From Acidobacteriota bacterium (lineage in GTDB: Bacteria; Acidobacteriota; Vicinamibacteria; Vicinamibacterales; UBA2999): a DNA stretch of 54,447 bases. The stretch's first letter is position 1, and each line of letters opens with the position of its first letter. The position numbers and the translations under genes were made by a program. The stretch spans positions 1-54,447 of the forward strand of contig JAUSDY010000099.1 of assembly GCA_030650395.1 (NCBI GenBank), read 5' to 3'. Positions 7,145 through 49,887 of this stretch are shown one piece after another. Below the pieces are notes generated by a model. That model made no database searches. It saw nothing but the letters and a program-made list of their open reading frames with translations, and had not been told where the DNA came from.

Positions 7145-7918
7145 TCAGTCCGGGGCCCCCGCCACGTGGACTTTGCGTGGTGGGGTGGAGTCCGGGGCCC
7201 CCGCCACGCGGACTTTGCGTGGTGGGGTGGAGTCGGCACACAGCGCGTCCAGCGCGGCAAGGGTGAGCGCGTGCAGCCCCGGCACCACCAGCTCCGCGTT
7301 GGCGCGCAGCTCGGGTTCCGAGTAGGTGTTGGTCACGGCGACGCAGCGCAAGTCGGCGCCCCGCGCCGAGACAAGCCCCCACTTCGTGTCTTCGATGGCC
7401 ACCGTCCGCCAGGGGATGAGCTCGCGGCCGGTCACCGCGCGAAGGCGCGCCAACGCCGTCACGTAGGGATCGGAACTGGGTTTGCTGCGCTCGGTTTGAT
7501 CGGCGCCGACGATGACCGTAAACAGCGGGCGCAGGCCGGTTCGCTCGAGGACATCTTCGATCTCGTGGGTGAGAGAGCCCGAGGCGATCGCGATCGGCAC
7601 GGCCGCCGCGGCCGCGCGGATGAAATCGGCCGCGCCGGGAAACAGCATCTCACCGGCGGCAGACAGTTCTTCGTAGCGCCGGCCCTTTTCGGCGATGAGC
7701 GCCGTGACCCGGCCGTCGTCCATGGGCAGGTCCTGGTCCATGCCGATCGCCTTGAACACGCCGACATCGTCGTAGCCGAGATAGCGCTCGAAGTAATCGG
7801 CGGCCGACATCGTGATGCCCTTCGGCGTGAGGATGTCCTGGTAGGCGAGAAGGTGCAGGCGTTCGGTGTCGACAATCACCCCGTCGAAGTCGAACACAAT
7901 CGCCTGAAGCGCGTTCAT
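7145..7918 (-). CDS. HAD-superfamily hydrolase, beta-phosphoglucomutase/phosphatase type
   Basis: 257 residues from ATG 7918, two bases after the stop of the upstream DUF1684 gene. Motif I is DFDGVIVDT near the N-terminus with the nucleophile Asp and acid/base Asp. Motif II is IASGS, motif III is the Lys in KPSSDPY, and motif IV is AIEDTKWG. The spacing is that of HAD subfamily IA with a helical cap (beta-PGM or sugar-phosphate phosphatase-like). The last 30 residues are not part of the fold. They are a duplicated 14-residue peptide (STPPRKVRVAGAPD) encoded by two tandem copies of a 42-bp palindromic repeat, so the C-terminus has been extended by repeat insertion. Confidence 0.8.
   Translation of the reverse strand: MNALQAIVFDFDGVIVDTERLHLLAYQDILTPKGITMSAADYFERYLGYDDVGVFKAIGMDQDLPMDDGRVTALIAEKGRRYEELSAAGEMLFPGAADFIRAAAAAVPIAIASGSLTHEIEDVLERTGLRPLFTVIVGADQTERSKPSSDPYVTALARLRAVTGRELIPWRTVAIEDTKWGLVSARGADLRCVAVTNTYSEPELRANAELVVPGLHALTLAALDALCADSTPPRKVRVAGAPDSTPPRKVHVAGAPD
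7149..7232. repeat. Two tandem copies of a 42-bp REP-like palindromic repeat
   Basis: Units 7149-7190 and 7191-7232 differ at one base. Each can form a hairpin with stem CCGCCACGC / GCGTGGTGG around a 7-base loop. The 42-bp period keeps frame in the HAD gene, where the repeat encodes its C-terminal tail. Confidence 0.85.
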
Positions 7919-24637: not shown

Positions 24638-25930
24638 ATGAAGACCAATCGACGCTCGTTTCTGCGGATGACCGGCGCCCTGGGCGCGGGGGCTCTTGCC
24701 TTTGGCGACAACAGCATCGAGCTGGTGGCGCAGGCGTCGCGGGCGCTCGGCAACCGCACGGCAGACGACGTGGCCGCCGACGAGGGCTACTGGCGCGACA
24801 TCCAGAATGCCTTCACGTTGGATCGCTCGCTGATCAATCTCAACAACGGCAACAGCTGCCCGAGTCCGACGGTCGTGCACGAGGCATACAAGCGCTATCT
24901 GGATTACTCGAACCAGGCGCCGGTGTATCATCGCGGGCTGATCGAGCGGAACATCGAAGTGGTGCGCCGCCGCCTGGCCGCGGAGTTCGGCTGCGATACC
25001 GAGGAAATGGCGATCACGCGCAACTCGAGCGAGTCGCTGCAGATCGCGCAGAACGGCCTCGACCTCGAGCCGGGCGACGAAGTCGTGACGACCGAACAGG
25101 ATTACGGCCGCATGCTGACGACGTGGGACCAGCGCGCGCGCCGCCAGAAGATCAAGATCACCAAGATCAATTTCCCGGTGCCGACGACCGGCGAAGATCT
25201 GTACGCGCGGCTCGAAGGCGCGATTACGCCGCGCACGAAAGTGCTGCACTTCTGCCATATCACCAATCTGACCGGGCAGATCTTCCCGGTGCAGAACCTG
25301 GCGCGCATGGCGCGCTCGCGCGGCATCATCACGATCGTCGACGGCGCGCACGCGGTGGCGCATTTCCCGTTCAAGCTGCGCGACCTCGAGATGGATTACT
25401 ACGGCACCAGCCTGCACAAGTGGCTGCTCGCGCCCACCGGCACCGGCTTCCTCTACGTCCGGCGCGATCGCATCGCCAAGACCTGGCCGCTCCAGGCCGC
25501 GCCGGAGCGCAACGAGAACGACATCCGCAAGTTCGAGGAGATCGGCACCTCGCCGGCCGCCACCAAGGCGGCGATCAACGAGGCACTGGCCTTCCACCAG
25601 GCGATCGGCACCGAGCGCGTCGCCGCGCGGCTGCGCTACCTGACGCTGCGGTGGGCCAACAAGCTCAAGACCCAGCCGCGCGTGCTGATCCACACCGACC
25701 TCAACCAGGTCTACGGCGTGGCGTGCGTCGGCATCAAGGACATCCCAGCTGCGCGCATCAACGCGTTCATGTGGGACAAGTACCGCATCGTCACGACGGC
25801 GATCAGCCGTCCTGAATACAACGGCATCCGCGTCACGCCCAACATCTACACGCCGCTCGAGGAGATCGACACCTTCGTTGCGGCGATGGAAGATCTGCTC
25901 AAGAACGGCCTCCCGGCGCCGACGGCGTAG
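24638..25930 (+). CDS. Tat-exported class V aminotransferase-like PLP enzyme
   Basis: 430 residues with GGGAGG before the ATG. The N-terminus NRRSFLRMTGALGAGALAFG is a twin-arginine signal, so the folded, PLP-loaded enzyme would be exported. The aminotransferase V domain shows INLNNGNSCPSP, ITRNSSESLQIA, the PLP-binding Asp/His segment IVDGAHAVAHFPF and the Schiff-base Lys in YGTSLHKWLLAPTGTGF. The closest known activities are isopenicillin-N-epimerase-like and cysteine-desulfurase-like enzymes; the substrate is unknown. It is divergent from the M28 peptidase. Downstream is a 456-base gap containing a large structured repeat. Confidence 0.8.
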   Translation: MKTNRRSFLRMTGALGAGALAFGDNSIELVAQASRALGNRTADDVAADEGYWRDIQNAFTLDRSLINLNNGNSCPSPTVVHEAYKRYLDYSNQAPVYHRGLIERNIEVVRRRLAAEFGCDTEEMAITRNSSESLQIAQNGLDLEPGDEVVTTEQDYGRMLTTWDQRARRQKIKITKINFPVPTTGEDLYARLEGAITPRTKVLHFCHITNLTGQIFPVQNLARMARSRGIITIVDGAHAVAHFPFKLRDLEMDYYGTSLHKWLLAPTGTGFLYVRRDRIAKTWPLQAAPERNENDIRKFEEIGTSPAATKAAINEALAFHQAIGTERVAARLRYLTLRWANKLKTQPRVLIHTDLNQVYGVACVGIKDIPAARINAFMWDKYRIVTTAISRPEYNGIRVTPNIYTPLEEIDTFVAAMEDLLKNGLPAPTA

Positions 25931-25959
25931 TGAGTGGCTTCTTCAGTCACCGTCGCATC

Positions 25960-26334
25960 GCGCCCGTCCGCCGAGATGCACCGGCCCGCGCTCGCTCTCG
26001 TTCGCCGGACAAATGTCGCTCAGCACATTAAGCGCGTAGCGATGGACGTCTAATTCCGCACGGCGCCAGCGTAGCTTCCGCTCCATTTGTCTCTCGGCTC
26101 ACTCGAACGCTCGCGCGGGCCGGTGCCTCTCGGCGGCCGGGCGCACAGCGGAGAGAGGCCGTTCCGGCGTGAGCGTTCGAACGAGGCGACAACAAGAATC
26201 CACGCGTCAAATCGACTGGAGCCTACGCAGGCGCCTTGCCGTCTTTGGCGCGTCCATCGCTGGGGCGATTAATGTGGCGAAGGAGAGTTGACCGCCGAGT
26301 GAGAGCGAACGCCGGGACGGCCTCTCTCCGCGCG
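25960..26334. repeat. Large structured dispersed element, copy A (about 375 bp, two long hairpins)
   Basis: This fills most of the gap 25931-26386. It is about 90% identical to the reverse complement of 48247-48614. Hairpin 1 has arms 25968-25991 and 26113-26136 (23 of 24 paired). Hairpin 2 has arms 26150-26170 and 26309-26329 (one G-T wobble). The loops of the two hairpins contain complementary words: CACATTAA plus AGCGATGGACG at 26024-26048, and CGTCCATCGCT plus TTAATGTG at 26251-26276. No convincing protein is encoded. A MITE-like element and a structured RNA are both possible. Confidence 0.85.
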
Positions 26335-26386
26335 ATCGGCCGCTCCGCACGCCGGCCCTCAAGCCTCAAGCCTTGAGAACTGCGTA

Positions 26387-26845
26387 ATGCCGACCGCGAT
26401 TCATCGACAGGTTGATCTCGCGCGCCGCGGGGAGTTCGCGCGCGTAATCAAGCGAATGCCGTCCGGATGGGCGGTGCTCGGCGACCCGCAGATCACGCCC
26501 GGGTACTGCCTGCTGCTTCCCGACCCGGTCGTGGCGGATTTGAACGCGCTGACCGGCGCGGCCCGGCTGCAATTCCTCGACGACATGGCGCGCCTTGGCG
26601 ATGCCGTGCTCGCGGTGACCGGCGCCGAGCGCATCAACTACGAAATTCTCGGCAACGTGGAACCGGCGCTGCATGCGCACGTGATTCCGCGCCACGCGTC
26701 GGAGGATCCCGAGCTCAGGACGAAGCCGGTGTGGCTGCACGATTGGACACGCGCGGCGCCCTTTGATCCCGCGCGCCATCGCGAACTGGCGGGGTTGCTG
26801 GCTGCTATGCTTTCGGCCCCGGTTGTTCCCTGCAGCCGGCGGTGA
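26387..26845 (+). CDS. HIT-family hydrolase-like protein
   Basis: 152 residues. The histidine-triad signature is present as LHAHVIPRH (H-x-H-x-x-x-R form, divergent from HxHxHxx), preceded by PGYCLLLPDPVV and the helix RLQFLDDMARLGDAVLAVTGAERINYEILGN, which is the usual HIT layout. HIT proteins hydrolyse nucleotide-phosphoramidate or dinucleotide bonds. The third His is replaced, so catalysis may differ. The stop overlaps a GTG-started frame of 53 codons (26842-27003). Confidence 0.7.
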   Translation: MPTAIHRQVDLARRGEFARVIKRMPSGWAVLGDPQITPGYCLLLPDPVVADLNALTGAARLQFLDDMARLGDAVLAVTGAERINYEILGNVEPALHAHVIPRHASEDPELRTKPVWLHDWTRAAPFDPARHRELAGLLAAMLSAPVVPCSRR

Positions 26846-30394: not shown

Positions 30395-32182
<1,788 letters not shown>

Positions 32183-32193
32183 ATCAGACTCCT

Positions 32194-32230
32194 TGAACCC
32201 CTGAACCTCTGAACCCGTGAACCGCTGAAC

Positions 32231-32233
<3 letters not shown>
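32194..32233. repeat. Five tandem octamers TGAACCNN
   Basis: TGAACCCC, TGAACCTC, TGAACCCG, TGAACCGC, TGAACCTA in direct succession between the FadA-like and FadE-like genes; the last unit includes the thiolase stop. The first six bases of each unit are invariant and the last two vary. Confidence 0.9.
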
Positions 32234-33418
<1,185 letters not shown>

Positions 33419-38011: not shown

Positions 38012-38425
38012 ATGGCCAAAGACTTCACAGAACTCGTCGCTTGGCAGCTTGCAGTGAAACTGGAAGACTTCGTCATCAACATGACGCGCCGACCGGCGCT
38101 GACGCGCGATCGCGTGTTCTGTGCGCAAGCAAACGACGCGGCCCAATCTGCTCCGCGAAATATCGCTGAAGGCTTCGGGCGGTTTGCGCCCAAAGAATTC
38201 GCTCAATACATTCGCATTGCTATCGGCTCCGAACTTGAAACGCGAAACCAAATCCTCGAAGCCGCTCGAAAAGGTGCGATCACACCCGCGGAGCGTGATG
38301 AAGGCGTACTCCTGACGAGAAGGGCGGTCACCGCGGCGTTGAGACTGCGTCGTTACCTCCGCTCATCTCGGGCCCGGGCAAATGCAGAGCGAATCGAGAA
38401 CTCCCGGAACGCAGAGAACCCCTGA
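38012..38425 (+). CDS. S23-type four-helix-bundle protein (23S rRNA intervening-sequence family)
   Basis: 137 residues. Family signatures are DFTELVAWQLAVKLEDFVI at the start, QANDAAQSAPRNIAEGFGRF and EFAQYIRIAIGSELETRNQI. This is the family encoded by 23S rRNA intervening sequences and by many free-standing genes of unknown function; a helical homopentamer is known structurally. The last 10 residues (NSRNAENP) run into a tandem octamer array. The gene is bracketed by inverted arrays (37914-37975 and 38415-38462), which sets it apart from its neighbours on the opposite strand and suggests it arrived as a unit. Confidence 0.8.
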   Translation: MAKDFTELVAWQLAVKLEDFVINMTRRPALTRDRVFCAQANDAAQSAPRNIAEGFGRFAPKEFAQYIRIAIGSELETRNQILEAARKGAITPAERDEGVLLTRRAVTAALRLRRYLRSSRARANAERIENSRNAENP

Positions 38426-38462
38426 ACCCCTGAACCTCTGAACCCCTGAACCCCTGAACCTG
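38415..38462. repeat. Octamer array TGAACCCC, right of the S23-type gene
   Basis: Six units (one variant AGAACCCC) at a strict 8-bp period, ending 2 bases before the stop of the ABC permease gene on the other strand. Confidence 0.88.
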
Positions 38463-38464
38463 TG

Positions 38465-39295
38465 TCACTTCCATCTCATGAGGATGGTCTCCCTCTGAAA
38501 CACCTGAACGCCGACCCAGAGCAGCACGGCGTTCAGCAGGAGACATCCGAACGAGCCAAGTAGAAGAACAGTCGGCCCGACGATGAAAGCGCCCATCAGT
38601 TGGGCGACGAAGACCGCGGTGATTGGCAGGATCAGGAGTGAGGTCAGCTGTTGAGCGGACCGCGGGTCGTTGGCTCGTGACGACACGATCACTGATAACT
38701 GCAGCGCAGCCAGCTCGACCAGCGGGCCCAGCACGCACAGCATCAGGAACGTGCGCACCCCGAGCAGCGCGCGCCACACACCGGGCTCGCTGACCAGCCA
38801 TACGCCGCCGATGAACAACGCGGCGGCAATCCACGTGAGCGCGAGGGCGAATACGAACGGGGTCAGCGTCTTGGCGGCCAGCAACTCGATCGTCGACAGC
38901 GGCGTGGCCAGCAGTGGTTCGAGCGCCTTCGATTGCTTTTCTCCGATCACCGAATGCGTGGCGAGCGCCATCGCACCGACTACCGGAACGAGCAGCAACA
39001 GCAGCGTGAACTGGTGAAACAGGAAGGCCTGGATCAGGCCGTCGCCGCTCAATCCCGCCAGCTCGGGGATCTGGCCGACCGCGGCCCGCGCTTCTTCGCT
39101 GAACTGGCCCGACGCCTCGAGGCCCCGGCCGGCAATCATCGGCGCGCCGACGACCACAAAGAAGGCGGGGAACAGCGAGCCGGCCACCATCGCGACCGCC
39201 GGCAGGATCGCGCCGGGGTTGCGCGCGAGCTCCGCGGCGTCTTTCCGCGCAATCGCGCTGATGCGTTGCCACGACGATCCGGTGACAGCCGTCAT
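38465..39295 (-). CDS. ABC-2 type transporter permease
   Basis: 276 residues. Six hydrophobic segments are visible (VAMVAGSLFPAFFVVVGA, FTLLLLLVPVVGAMAL, LTPFVFALALTWIAAALFIGGV, FLMLCVLGPLVELAALQL, LLILPITAVFVAQLMGAF, VLLLGSFGCLLLNAVLLW). A large extracytoplasmic loop follows the first, and the cytoplasmic segment EKQSKALEPLLATPLSTIELLAAK is the usual ABC-2 coupling region. Its start overlaps the ATPase stop by 4 bases. Together they form a one-ATPase one-permease exporter; the substrate is unknown. Confidence 0.82.
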   Translation of the reverse strand: MTAVTGSSWQRISAIARKDAAELARNPGAILPAVAMVAGSLFPAFFVVVGAPMIAGRGLEASGQFSEEARAAVGQIPELAGLSGDGLIQAFLFHQFTLLLLLVPVVGAMALATHSVIGEKQSKALEPLLATPLSTIELLAAKTLTPFVFALALTWIAAALFIGGVWLVSEPGVWRALLGVRTFLMLCVLGPLVELAALQLSVIVSSRANDPRSAQQLTSLLILPITAVFVAQLMGAFIVGPTVLLLGSFGCLLLNAVLLWVGVQVFQRETILMRWK

Positions 39296-47409: not shown

Positions 47410-48162
47410 TCAGTGAATATGCTTCTTCCAGTCGCTCTTCCAGTCGTCTTCTGAAGAGCGGCCGCCGGAATACACGTCGAAGCGGTTGCGGGCCCGGCCC
47501 ATCTTCCATCGCAGCCAGCGGTACTTGATCTCGTCGAAGGGCCGCGCCCTCAGACCCTTCAAGTACAGGTAGCCAACGATCAGGCCGCCGAGGTGCGCGG
47601 TGTGGGCGACGCCGCCGCCCGGCCCGCCGAGCGCCGACAGGAACGCGATGGCGCCGACGATCATCACGAAGTACTTCGCCGGCATCGGGAAGACAAAATA
47701 GAGATAGATCGGCCGGTTGGGAAAATACATCCCGTAACCGAGCAGCAACCCGTAGATCGCGCCGGACGCGCCGACCGTGACCGTGTAATAGATGTCGTCG
47801 ATGAAGAGCGAGAGGATCAGGCTGGTCGCCGCGGCGCCGATGCCCGTGACGAAGTAATACTTGGTGAAGAACCGCGTGCCCCAGGTGCGCTCCAGCTCGG
47901 TGCCGAACATCCAGAGCGACAACATGTTGATCAGGATGTGCCCCACGCCCCCGGTGTCGTGCAGGAACATGTAGGTGACCGGCTGCCAGAGCGCGAACTG
48001 CTCGAACACCGCCTGCGGCTGCAAGCCGAGCCGCAGCGTCATCAGCGGCACGATCAGGTTCAACAGGAACATGACGACGTTGACGATGACGAGCAGCTTC
48101 ACCGCGGGCGTCATGCGTCCCGGGCCGAAGGACGCCGCGGTGGTCGAAGGGTAACGTGCCAT
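47410..48162 (-). CDS. Rhomboid-family intramembrane serine protease
   Basis: 250 residues from ATG 48162. Six membrane segments are visible. Rhomboid motifs: GHILINMLSLWMFG (HxxxN of TM2), TVTVGASGAIYGLLLGYG (GxSG with the nucleophile Ser, TM4) and GVAHTAHLGGLIVGYLYLKG (catalytic His, TM6). The C-terminal 40 residues are charged (KYRWLRWKMGRARNRFDVY...DDWKSDWKKH). It would cleave membrane proteins within the lipid bilayer; the substrate is unknown. Confidence 0.85.
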   Translation of the reverse strand: MARYPSTTAASFGPGRMTPAVKLLVIVNVVMFLLNLIVPLMTLRLGLQPQAVFEQFALWQPVTYMFLHDTGGVGHILINMLSLWMFGTELERTWGTRFFTKYYFVTGIGAAATSLILSLFIDDIYYTVTVGASGAIYGLLLGYGMYFPNRPIYLYFVFPMPAKYFVMIVGAIAFLSALGGPGGGVAHTAHLGGLIVGYLYLKGLRARPFDEIKYRWLRWKMGRARNRFDVYSGGRSSEDDWKSDWKKHIH

Positions 48163-48246
48163 TGCTCTGCGCCGAATCGTACTACGAGTGACCCTCCTCA
48201 GAAACTGCGAGCTACGCAGGCGCCCTGAGTACACGCGGGCAGAGCG

Positions 48247-48614
48247 CGCGGAGAGAGGCCGTCCCGTCGTTCGCTCTCACTCGGCGGTCAAATCTCCTTC
48301 GCCACATTAATCACCCCAGCTATGGACGCGCCAAAGACGGCAAGACGGCTGCGTGGGCTCCAGTCGATTTGACAGCCAGACTCTTGTCGTCGCCTCGTTC
48401 GAACGCTCACGCCGGAACGGCCTCTCTCCGCTGTGCGCCCGTCCGAGAGACACCGGCCCGAGCGAGCGTTCGAGTGAGCCGAGAGACAAATGGAGCGGAA
48501 GCTACGCTGGCGCCATGCGGGTTTAGACGTCCATCGCTTCAGCGCTTAATGCGCTGAGCGACATTTGTCCGGCGAACGAGAGCGAGCTCGGGCCGGTGTC
48601 TCTCGGCGGGCGCC
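48247..48614. repeat. Large structured dispersed element, copy B (about 368 bp, inverted relative to copy A)
   Basis: This fills most of the gap 48163-48657 between the rhomboid and MFS genes. Hairpin 1 arms 48586-48606 and 48443-48463 are complementary over 21 of 21 bases. Hairpin 2 arms are 48250-48270 and 48409-48429. Compared with copy A two pairs in hairpin 1 have changed on both sides (A-T to C-G and A-T to G-C). An inner stem CAGCGC/GCGCTG is perfect here but broken in copy A. No convincing gene lies within it. Confidence 0.85.
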
Positions 48615-48657
48615 CTCGACAGGAGGCCGAGTGCGACGCGACCGTAAGATGCAAGAG

Positions 48658-49887
48658 CTATAAGGAAACGCCAGAATCCAGAGCCGGAGTAGCAGCGGCC
48701 GAACCGATCGAACCTGGCGAACCTGACGAACCCGACGAACCCGAACCGCGAGGCAACCACCAAGCGAGCGCGGCGGCGAGGAGCGGGATGAAGGCGAGCA
48801 CCGTGAGCGTCTGCTCGATACCGAAGCGATCGGCGCCCGCGCCGATTAGCGGCACGGCCAGGCTACCCATTCCCCACGCAAACCCCATCATCAGCGACGA
48901 CACGGTGGCCGCTCCGCCCTTGACGAACGTCTGGGCGAACGTGACGCTGATTGGCAGCGTCGATTGAAGCAGCAGACCGCCAATCGCGAGCATGGCCGTG
49001 AACCCGACGGGCGGCAGGCGCGGCGCCATTGCCATGAACGGCACCGCGGCGACGAGCGACCACAGAATTACTCGCCGCGGGCCGACCCGGTCCGAGAGCG
49101 GGCCGCCGATCAGTCCGCCGATGCCGCTGGCAAACAGATACAGCGACACCGCCGAGCTCGCCTCAGCGATCGACAGGCCCTGATGCGTGAGCAGTGTCGG
49201 TGCATAGGTCATGAACCCGTACGAAGTCGCGGTTCGCAGCACGATGGTGAAGTACAGCAGCGTGAGGGGAACCGCGGCCGGCCGCAAGCTCGCCCACGTC
49301 GACCGTTCGTGCGCCTTCGGCAGTTCGATCGCGGGCACTTGTCTCAGCGTCCACGACAAGGCGATGAGGCCGGGGATCATAATGAGCGGCGACCACTGCA
49401 GCCCCATGTAGGCGATGAACGGCGCGAACAGGATCGGCGCAGCCGAAAAGCCGAGCGAGCCGCCCGATAAGTGGGCCGACATCGCCAACCCCTTCCGATG
49501 ATCGGCGAGCTTGTAAACCAGTGCGGCCGCCGGCGGATGGAACGCGGCGCCGCCAAGGCCGCCCGCAACCAGGATCAGCCCCAATGTCAGCGGCGAGTGT
49601 GCCCACCCAACGAAGCTCAACCCGATTACCGCCAGCAGCGGCCCCATCACCACCAATGCGCGTGGCCGCCAGCGGTCCGCGAGTGCGCCAAACCCGAGCT
49701 GTGACACGGAATTGGCCATCTGAAAACACATCGCCACGATCCCGGCCGTCTTCAGCGACAGATTGAGATGCGGAATCAGCAGCGGCAGCAGCGGCGCGTA
49801 GATGTTCGTATACGCGTCGACGATCACATGCGTGGATGCGATCTTCCAGATCGACGTATGCAGCCCGAACCAGCCGCGCTCGGTCAC
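48658..49887 (-). CDS. MFS transporter, Fsr (fosmidomycin-resistance)-like
   Basis: 409 residues with twelve predicted membrane segments. The start SIWKIASTHVIVDAYTNIYAPLLPLLIPHL and the motif GALADRWRPRALVVMGPLLA (motif A), with AGGLGGAAFHPPAAAL, are characteristic of the Fsr/YnfM subgroup of the major facilitator superfamily. The C-terminal tail SGSSGSSGSPGSIGS is encoded by five 9-bp tandem units (48701-48745). Its ATG overlaps the murJ stop by 4 bases. The transported compound is unknown. Confidence 0.82.
   Translation of the reverse strand: MTERGWFGLHTSIWKIASTHVIVDAYTNIYAPLLPLLIPHLNLSLKTAGIVAMCFQMANSVSQLGFGALADRWRPRALVVMGPLLAVIGLSFVGWAHSPLTLGLILVAGGLGGAAFHPPAAALVYKLADHRKGLAMSAHLSGGSLGFSAAPILFAPFIAYMGLQWSPLIMIPGLIALSWTLRQVPAIELPKAHERSTWASLRPAAVPLTLLYFTIVLRTATSYGFMTYAPTLLTHQGLSIAEASSAVSLYLFASGIGGLIGGPLSDRVGPRRVILWSLVAAVPFMAMAPRLPPVGFTAMLAIGGLLLQSTLPISVTFAQTFVKGGAATVSSLMMGFAWGMGSLAVPLIGAGADRFGIEQTLTVLAFIPLLAAALAWWLPRGSGSSGSSGSPGSIGSAAATPALDSGVSL
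48701..48745. repeat. Five tandem nonamers GAACCYGRC coding the MFS C-terminal tail
   Basis: GAACCGATC, GAACCTGGC, GAACCTGAC, GAACCCGAC, GAACCCGAA at an exact 9-bp (three-codon) period. On the minus strand it reads Gly/Ser-rich. Confidence 0.85.

Follow-up and report, generated by a model that had tools for sequence, protein, structure and literature searches.

A genus-restricted family of long, covarying hairpin repeats in a Vicinamibacterales bacterium and its relatives

The double hairpin of the window and its family

The window, a stretch of 54,447 nucleotides, is contig 76 in the 5.41-Mb, 180-contig genome assembly (G000) of an uncultured Acidobacteriota bacterium, and two of its intergenic gaps hold the same double element. 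Copy A (25958..26341, no strand assigned; delimited by self-comparison, genome search and model) lies between the genes for a class-V aminotransferase (24638-25930, plus strand) and a HIT-domain protein (26387-26845, plus strand). Copy B (48238..48619, no strand assigned; delimited by window self-comparison), the same double inverted in the window, lies between those for a rhomboid protein (47410-48114, minus strand) and an MFS transporter (48658-49887, minus strand). The copies are about 92% identical overall, with inverted matches at 26134-26341/48238-48445 (92%), 26038-26133/48443-48538 (95%) and 25958-26035/48542-48619 (90%). Each consists of two 181-nt units placed back to back and pointing outward. 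The half-1 unit of copy A (25970..26134, minus strand) matches our covariance model at 148 bits, and its outer stem reaches about 25960-26144; the half-2 unit (26148..26331, plus strand) scores 195 bits. The half-2 and half-1 units of copy B (48248..48431, minus strand, and 48442..48607, plus strand) score 190 and 151 bits, respectively, and both half-2 units belong to the training alignment of the model. Gene calls from our home-made codon-usage caller, whose positions are approximate, overlap each of the four units by at most 50 nt, if at all; mechanical open reading frames, such as 48596-48967, touch the edge of the window units. Folded as single-stranded DNA, copy A reaches -122.9 kcal/mol versus -92.4 +/- 4.2 kcal/mol in 100 shuffles (z -7.2, 0/100 as low).

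The original prediction described two near-identical, inverted, intergenic copies of a 370-bp element, and the copies, their inversion and their intergenic position were all borne out. Its first hairpin is also real and corresponds to half 1, whereas the single 370-bp element resolves into two units, half 2 (26148-26331) being a second hairpin of the same family, which we call U. The idea of a two-copy element was mistaken: the copy A query gave 87 nucleotide matches in G000, resolving into units of about 181 nt, and a covariance model (R1) built on 25 units (alignment A1) gave 81 matches at E<=0.01, 19 of which read as antisense of the same palindromes. Two other repeats of the window are separate observations: a tandem, G+C-rich 42-bp repeat in two copies, 98% identical (7147-7230), which is distinct from the hairpin units, and arrays of an 8-bp unit (TGAACCCC-like) at 32178-32240 and 38399-38477.

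Searched against 66 sequence sources, R1 gave 153 matches, 91 of which were kept by hand; the 62 that were dropped are antisense matches to retained units plus, at contig C101, one member of an overlapping pair. The antisense of a unit also scores in the model because the unit is a near-palindrome (25.8 to 58.9 bits, with kept units at 32 to 214 bits), and a unit scores far above its own antisense (for example, 214 versus 49 bits). The 91 listed units are distributed over G000 (63), its sister species G001 (20), G007 (3), G006 (2), G004 and G005 (1 each) and G062, with one weak match. The remaining three of the nine genomes of the genus, G002, G003 and G008, gave no R1 match in the 43-genome search, whose stricter filters can lose weak matches. 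With the same proviso, 7 of the 43 genomes of the taxonomic family match R1, the window's own included, six of them within the genus and one, G062, marginally outside it. A nucleotide search likewise found matches in 6 of 60 genomes, own included, all within the genus. Since the most similar units are 96% identical, there are no very young copies. Contigs end inside U units at G000:C152:1, C120:73013 and C125:71004, at G001:C171:1 and C258:10343, and at G006:C283:4348; the assemblies thus break there, and the copy numbers may be underestimates.

The family matches no named element in the libraries searched, as had been predicted. Of the 4227 Rfam 15 families, none reached its gathering score in the window, and six loci gave no match at E<=1, so that a known RNA family is ruled out. 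The plasmid search gave no match, a strict two-part pattern found none in viral contigs, and single-base indels among the A1 units speak against a coding sequence. No title or abstract describing U was found in the open-access literature on palindromic or repetitive elements combined with Acidobacteria, Yersinia/YPAL, Vicinamibacter, bcr1 or template switching.

Fold, covariation and strand bias

The unit forms one long, irregular hairpin, modelled without a branch, in which a fast-changing outer stem is followed by short helices between conserved purine-rich internal loops and by a conserved top. The model gives the outer stem (helix 1) 23 pairs, and in many units this helix runs on into the flanks. 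The internal loops include two places in which G-A faces G-A in back-to-back mismatches, read from the sequence as GCGAGG on the 5' arm and CCGAGC on the 3' arm. Three alignments were chosen by hand, namely A1 (25 units), A2 (11 units) and A4 (18 units), and the last was aligned and left out of the counts. In A1, 96.8% of the cells are paired, and 18 of 53 pairs have changed on both sides, in 63 cells; such changes are confined to helices 1-4, with none in helices 5-6. None of 500 shuffles, which leave relatedness in, reached any of five measures, and sliding the structure by 1-3 columns left 30-50% of cells paired and 3-5 pairs with both sides changed, a comparison that is favoured by the derivation of the structure from these same sequences.

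In the half-1 alignment of 11 units, 14 of 54 pairs have changed on both sides. The two compensated stem pairs by which the original prediction had distinguished copies A and B reappear there as columns: at the first, the C-G of copy A corresponds to A-U in copy B; at the second, copy B is the only one of 11 rows with A-U, the remaining 10 having G-C, and copy A shows an extra G-A mismatch beside this pair. As a rule, the stems are kept in other copies, and a few units have decayed; for example, among the copies at sites shared between species, long matched arms are predicted in all but L080:2974, which has lost its 3' arm. Covariation far above the shuffle and slide controls, its recurrence in other copies and species, and the strand-specific bias described below all support the proposal that these changes reflect selection for a folded form or copying through one.

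If a fold is selected equally on both strands, G.U and A.C mispairs should be equally frequent, and if selection acts on RNA or on one particular DNA strand, they should not. In the model-fitted alignment of all 91 units there are 261 G.U and 46 A.C cells, an alignment that itself favours G.U. A neutral alignment of the 5' half against the 3' half gave 124 G.U versus 38 A.C, with 55 units richer in G.U and 6 richer in A.C. In the outer part of the main subset of 74 units, from which 17 weak, cut or atypical units had been excluded, the count was 49 versus 12. Counted as distinct sequence contexts, which are not fully independent, the mispairs number 80 G.U versus 29 A.C (binomial p about 1e-6). 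Given these strand-biased mispairs and the conserved loops, it seems to be the fold of one strand that matters.

How the pairs changed was followed in the outer stem. Below 10% divergence, one-sided changes through G.U (31) outnumber double changes (11), with 19 breaks, and the reverse holds above 10% divergence, with double changes the more frequent kind; from these counts, both stepwise and block-like change are possible. Between L127 and L129, whose unpaired sites diverge by 6.8%, three pairs are compensated and there is a single mismatch. Template switching, in place of selection, may account for some of the covariation.

Arrangement, shared loci and neighbouring hairpins

Almost all units (89 of 91) overlap no gene call; the two that do are L147:2286, a low-scoring unit, and L136:2710, at the 3' end of a real-looking gene. 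Genes flank 76 of the 91 units on both sides, with 45 units in co-directional, 22 in convergent and 9 in divergent gaps. Within co-directional gaps, 23 units point with the genes and 22 against them, and the balance is 14 versus 14 among the 49 units outside opposite-strand close pairs; the 42 units in such pairs were left out of the latter count because these pairs balance by themselves. Counting every gap once, units occupy 38 co-directional, 15 convergent and 8 divergent gaps, and the unit-free gaps of at least 20 nt in the same stretches number 111, 25 and 26, which indicates no clear preference for a gap type; a suspected avoidance of divergent gaps (8 of 61 with units versus 26 of 162 without) was dropped. 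Some units are aimed at gene starts, as at 26387 in the window and at a fumarate hydratase and permease locus, which had suggested a cis-regulatory 5' leader; as a general rule, this is ruled out by the random orientation.

Where two units lie within 3.5 kb of each other, 20 pairs are outward, 5 tandem and none inward. Thirteen of the outward pairs are tight doubles (less than 60 nt apart), with a spacing of 6-54 nt, and the other seven are spaced, with 0.3-2.9 kb between the units. Of the genes between spaced pairs, four were searched in Pfam and gave an IS1-like remnant, which is the sole transposase-like one, an AbiJ/DUF7014 protein and two without a match; no intact transposase was among them. 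The second of these, a protein with AbiJ_NTD4 and DUF7014 domains of the abortive-infection type, is at L126:4527-5450 (G000:C125), between outward units 2.9 kb apart.

Several loci are common to more than one species. A unit precedes the gene for a BMC shell protein in G000, G001 and G005, in the same orientation; between a TPR protein and an ExbD cluster, G007 has a tight double, G000 a pair with 510 nt between its units and G001 one unit; and a unit at the C138 locus is common to G000 and G001. The locus of fumarate hydratase and a MacB/FtsX-type permease has outward units in both G000 and G001. The DNA that separates them is not the same: in G000 it holds an HNH endonuclease reading frame (L150:2717-3166), in G001 an IS1 transposase remnant (L178:4743-5204). 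When the first two copies of each of eight shared sites were aligned with 40-nt flanks, identity was 72-80% at six sites, 66% at mnmE-mnmG and 51% at UPF0102/YraN, where the unit is inverted. Among the nine genomes, the mnmE-mnmG gap holds a unit only in G000 and G006, which may be two independent insertions. The same gap carries another inverted repeat (GGGACTCG.../CGAGTCCC...) in G001 (L199), at the place of the U unit of G000 and G006, and short repeats of the GGTTCAA type in G004 and G008.

Two further hairpin repeats accompany U. Family B, often directly 5' of U and adjoining many single units in G000, has CGACGAGAGGTTGCTTTGAG... arms and a GCTCATGAAGCGC centre (L138:1413-1580; G000 loci L221, L223, L225, L227, L229, L231, L233 and L235). 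Its matches number 36 in G000 and 13 in G001, a count in which each palindrome can appear on both strands; the seven other genomes of the genus gave none. Family P (L162:4178-4420; L207, L212, L214 and L217), a repeat of about 190-200 nt in G004-G008 with matching arms specific to each copy, is the 5' neighbour of the U units L161-L164 (G004-G007) and is 71-85% alike between loci, among the matches listed; seven matches lie in G008, a genome in which no U was found. Distinct G.U versus A.C mispairs number 5 versus 10 in P, taken in the direction of its U neighbour, and 2 versus 7 in B, too few events for a bias to be read from them. Five P or B loci gave only sub-threshold matches in Rfam. In two B-U composites of contig C125, U is inverted with respect to B, which, together with the differing neighbours, suggests partner exchange and inversion of inner parts.

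No target-site duplication was seen by eye in the flanks that were read, and the empty sites looked at were too diverged for the element ends to show. Y1_Tnp (PF01797), the sole transposase family searched, does not track the units, with one gene for 63 units in G000 and 13 genes for 3 units in G007; none of its matches across the genus lies beside a unit, and the G000 gene, on C1, is some 69 kb away from the closest unit of our list.

Origin and significance of U

Many dispersed intergenic copies without an internal transposase gene, together with a conserved long stem-loop, are MITE-like features, and known hairpin repeats of other bacteria offer comparisons. The Yersinia palindromic sequence YPAL/RU-2 (168 bp) is reported to have targets in or beside dyad symmetry (PMC2229807); U resembles it in its length, its palindromic fold, in being not A+T-rich and in being non-autonomous, and its hairpin neighbours recall the YPAL targets. 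YPAL differs in its reported target duplications of 3-26 bp, its filled and empty sites and its lineage, and we set the two apart by description. ERIC (IRU/RU-1, 127 bp), like U, is intergenic and predicted to form a single long stem-loop (PMC2267715), and an effect of its RNA on neighbouring transcripts is reported (PMC2229807). It is described with terminal repeats of 7 bp, TA ends and duplications (PMC2229807); the termini of U are its most variable part, and U is often an outward double. The Efa-1 and Pae-1 repeats also contain two adjacent stem-loops (PMC2267715), but both hairpins of a U double belong to one family and lie in opposite orientation, a comparison made by description and not by sequence. 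REP/REPIN hairpins likewise occur singly and in pairs, and recombinant RAYT recognises single-stranded REP DNA (PMC3733652). However, REPs are 20-40 bp long with a GTAG or CGTC tag (PMC3733652), and a U unit has 181 nt, a foot that is variable by eye and no such tagged hairpin; a RAYT/REPIN origin was ruled out on gene linkage.

We consider it probable, with moderate confidence, that U is an old, non-autonomous, genus-restricted MITE-like long-hairpin repeat of the ERIC/YPAL kind, recognised as a folded strand by an enzyme acting in trans. An origin as a repeat that was once mobile agrees with the copy number, the scatter, the intergenic position and the random orientation, and the outward pairs suggest that the complete element is probably the outward pair of two hairpins. 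On this view, a single unit would be what is left where the partner decayed, gave way to another hairpin repeat or was pushed off by insertions. The putative enzyme, recognising the folded strand, would have multiplied U in two lineages, and some loci would afterwards have been inherited across species of the genus. We are more doubtful of a bolder version, which we think rather unlikely, in which U represents a new class of mobile elements made of hairpins: two 180-nt hairpins facing outward, one specific single strand of which is read through its conserved tandem G-A loops by a non-RAYT enzyme, with the U, P and B families built on a similar plan, each with matched copy-specific arms, and swapping partners.

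Between structured RNA and MITE-type DNA, both of which the original prediction had left open, the copy number, intergenic scatter, random orientation and paired ends fit the latter, which we take to be the more probable. A functional RNA would require that the units be transcribed in sense and that the hairpin work in mRNA stability or processing in cis, or as a multicopy small RNA, with retention at shared loci reflecting function. The strand-specific G.U bias, the conserved internal loops and copies kept in place and orientation in two or three species, as at the BMC shell-protein and fumarate hydratase/MacB/FtsX-type permease genes, agree with this; yet the units show no preferred orientation to genes, their numbers range from 63 to 0 across the nine genomes, and the short spacing within tight doubles leaves little room for promoters, which makes this explanation unlikely in our judgement. 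An RNA effect is possible by analogy with ERIC, in that read-through transcripts could carry the hairpin as RNA and affect neighbouring mRNAs.

The mutational account, to which we assign a lower probability still and which we regard as improbable, needs no selection on the fold: template switching would homogenise near-palindromes and flip their inner part between the arms, and the covariation would be largely its product. This process is reported to create and maintain hairpin stems and to be able to explain asymmetric base-pair frequencies (PMC8794818), and a further paper deals with spacer inversion by template switching (PMC8604942). The block-like change between the close relatives L127 and L129, the excess of double changes in the outer stem at higher divergence and the flipped units on C125 fit this account, but the excess of one-sided G.U changes at low divergence is what stepwise change predicts, the predominance of G.U over A.C demands a strand-specific cause, and the inner helices and mismatch loops are conserved and not levelled to perfect palindromes. 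Finally, the units might be terminal inverted repeats of a larger transposon with variable cargo, in which case outward pairs 0.3-2.9 kb apart would be the element and solitary units its relics. The seven spaced pairs, the different DNA between units at one locus common to two species and the cargo-like genes (the HNH reading frame and the AbiJ/DUF7014 protein) recommend it; however, most outward pairs are tight, and the TPR/ExbD pair, tight in G007 and spaced in G000, and the IS1-like remnant at the G001 fumarate hydratase locus look as if insertions had split old doubles, and we hold this explanation to be very improbable. The MITE-like, functional-RNA and template-switching readings can also act together.

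U is a large hairpin repeat family with strong covariation, and the open-access literature searched yielded nothing comparable for this phylum. The roughly 90 units in six species of a single genus, together with the several loci that species share, make it well suited to testing the current question of whether matched arms of long hairpins are kept by selection on RNA or single-stranded DNA or by template switching. It is also a warning that covariation in itself is no proof of a functional RNA. Overall, U looks like a new, lineage-specific member of the small hairpin repeats, such as ERIC and YPAL, that are known in other bacteria.
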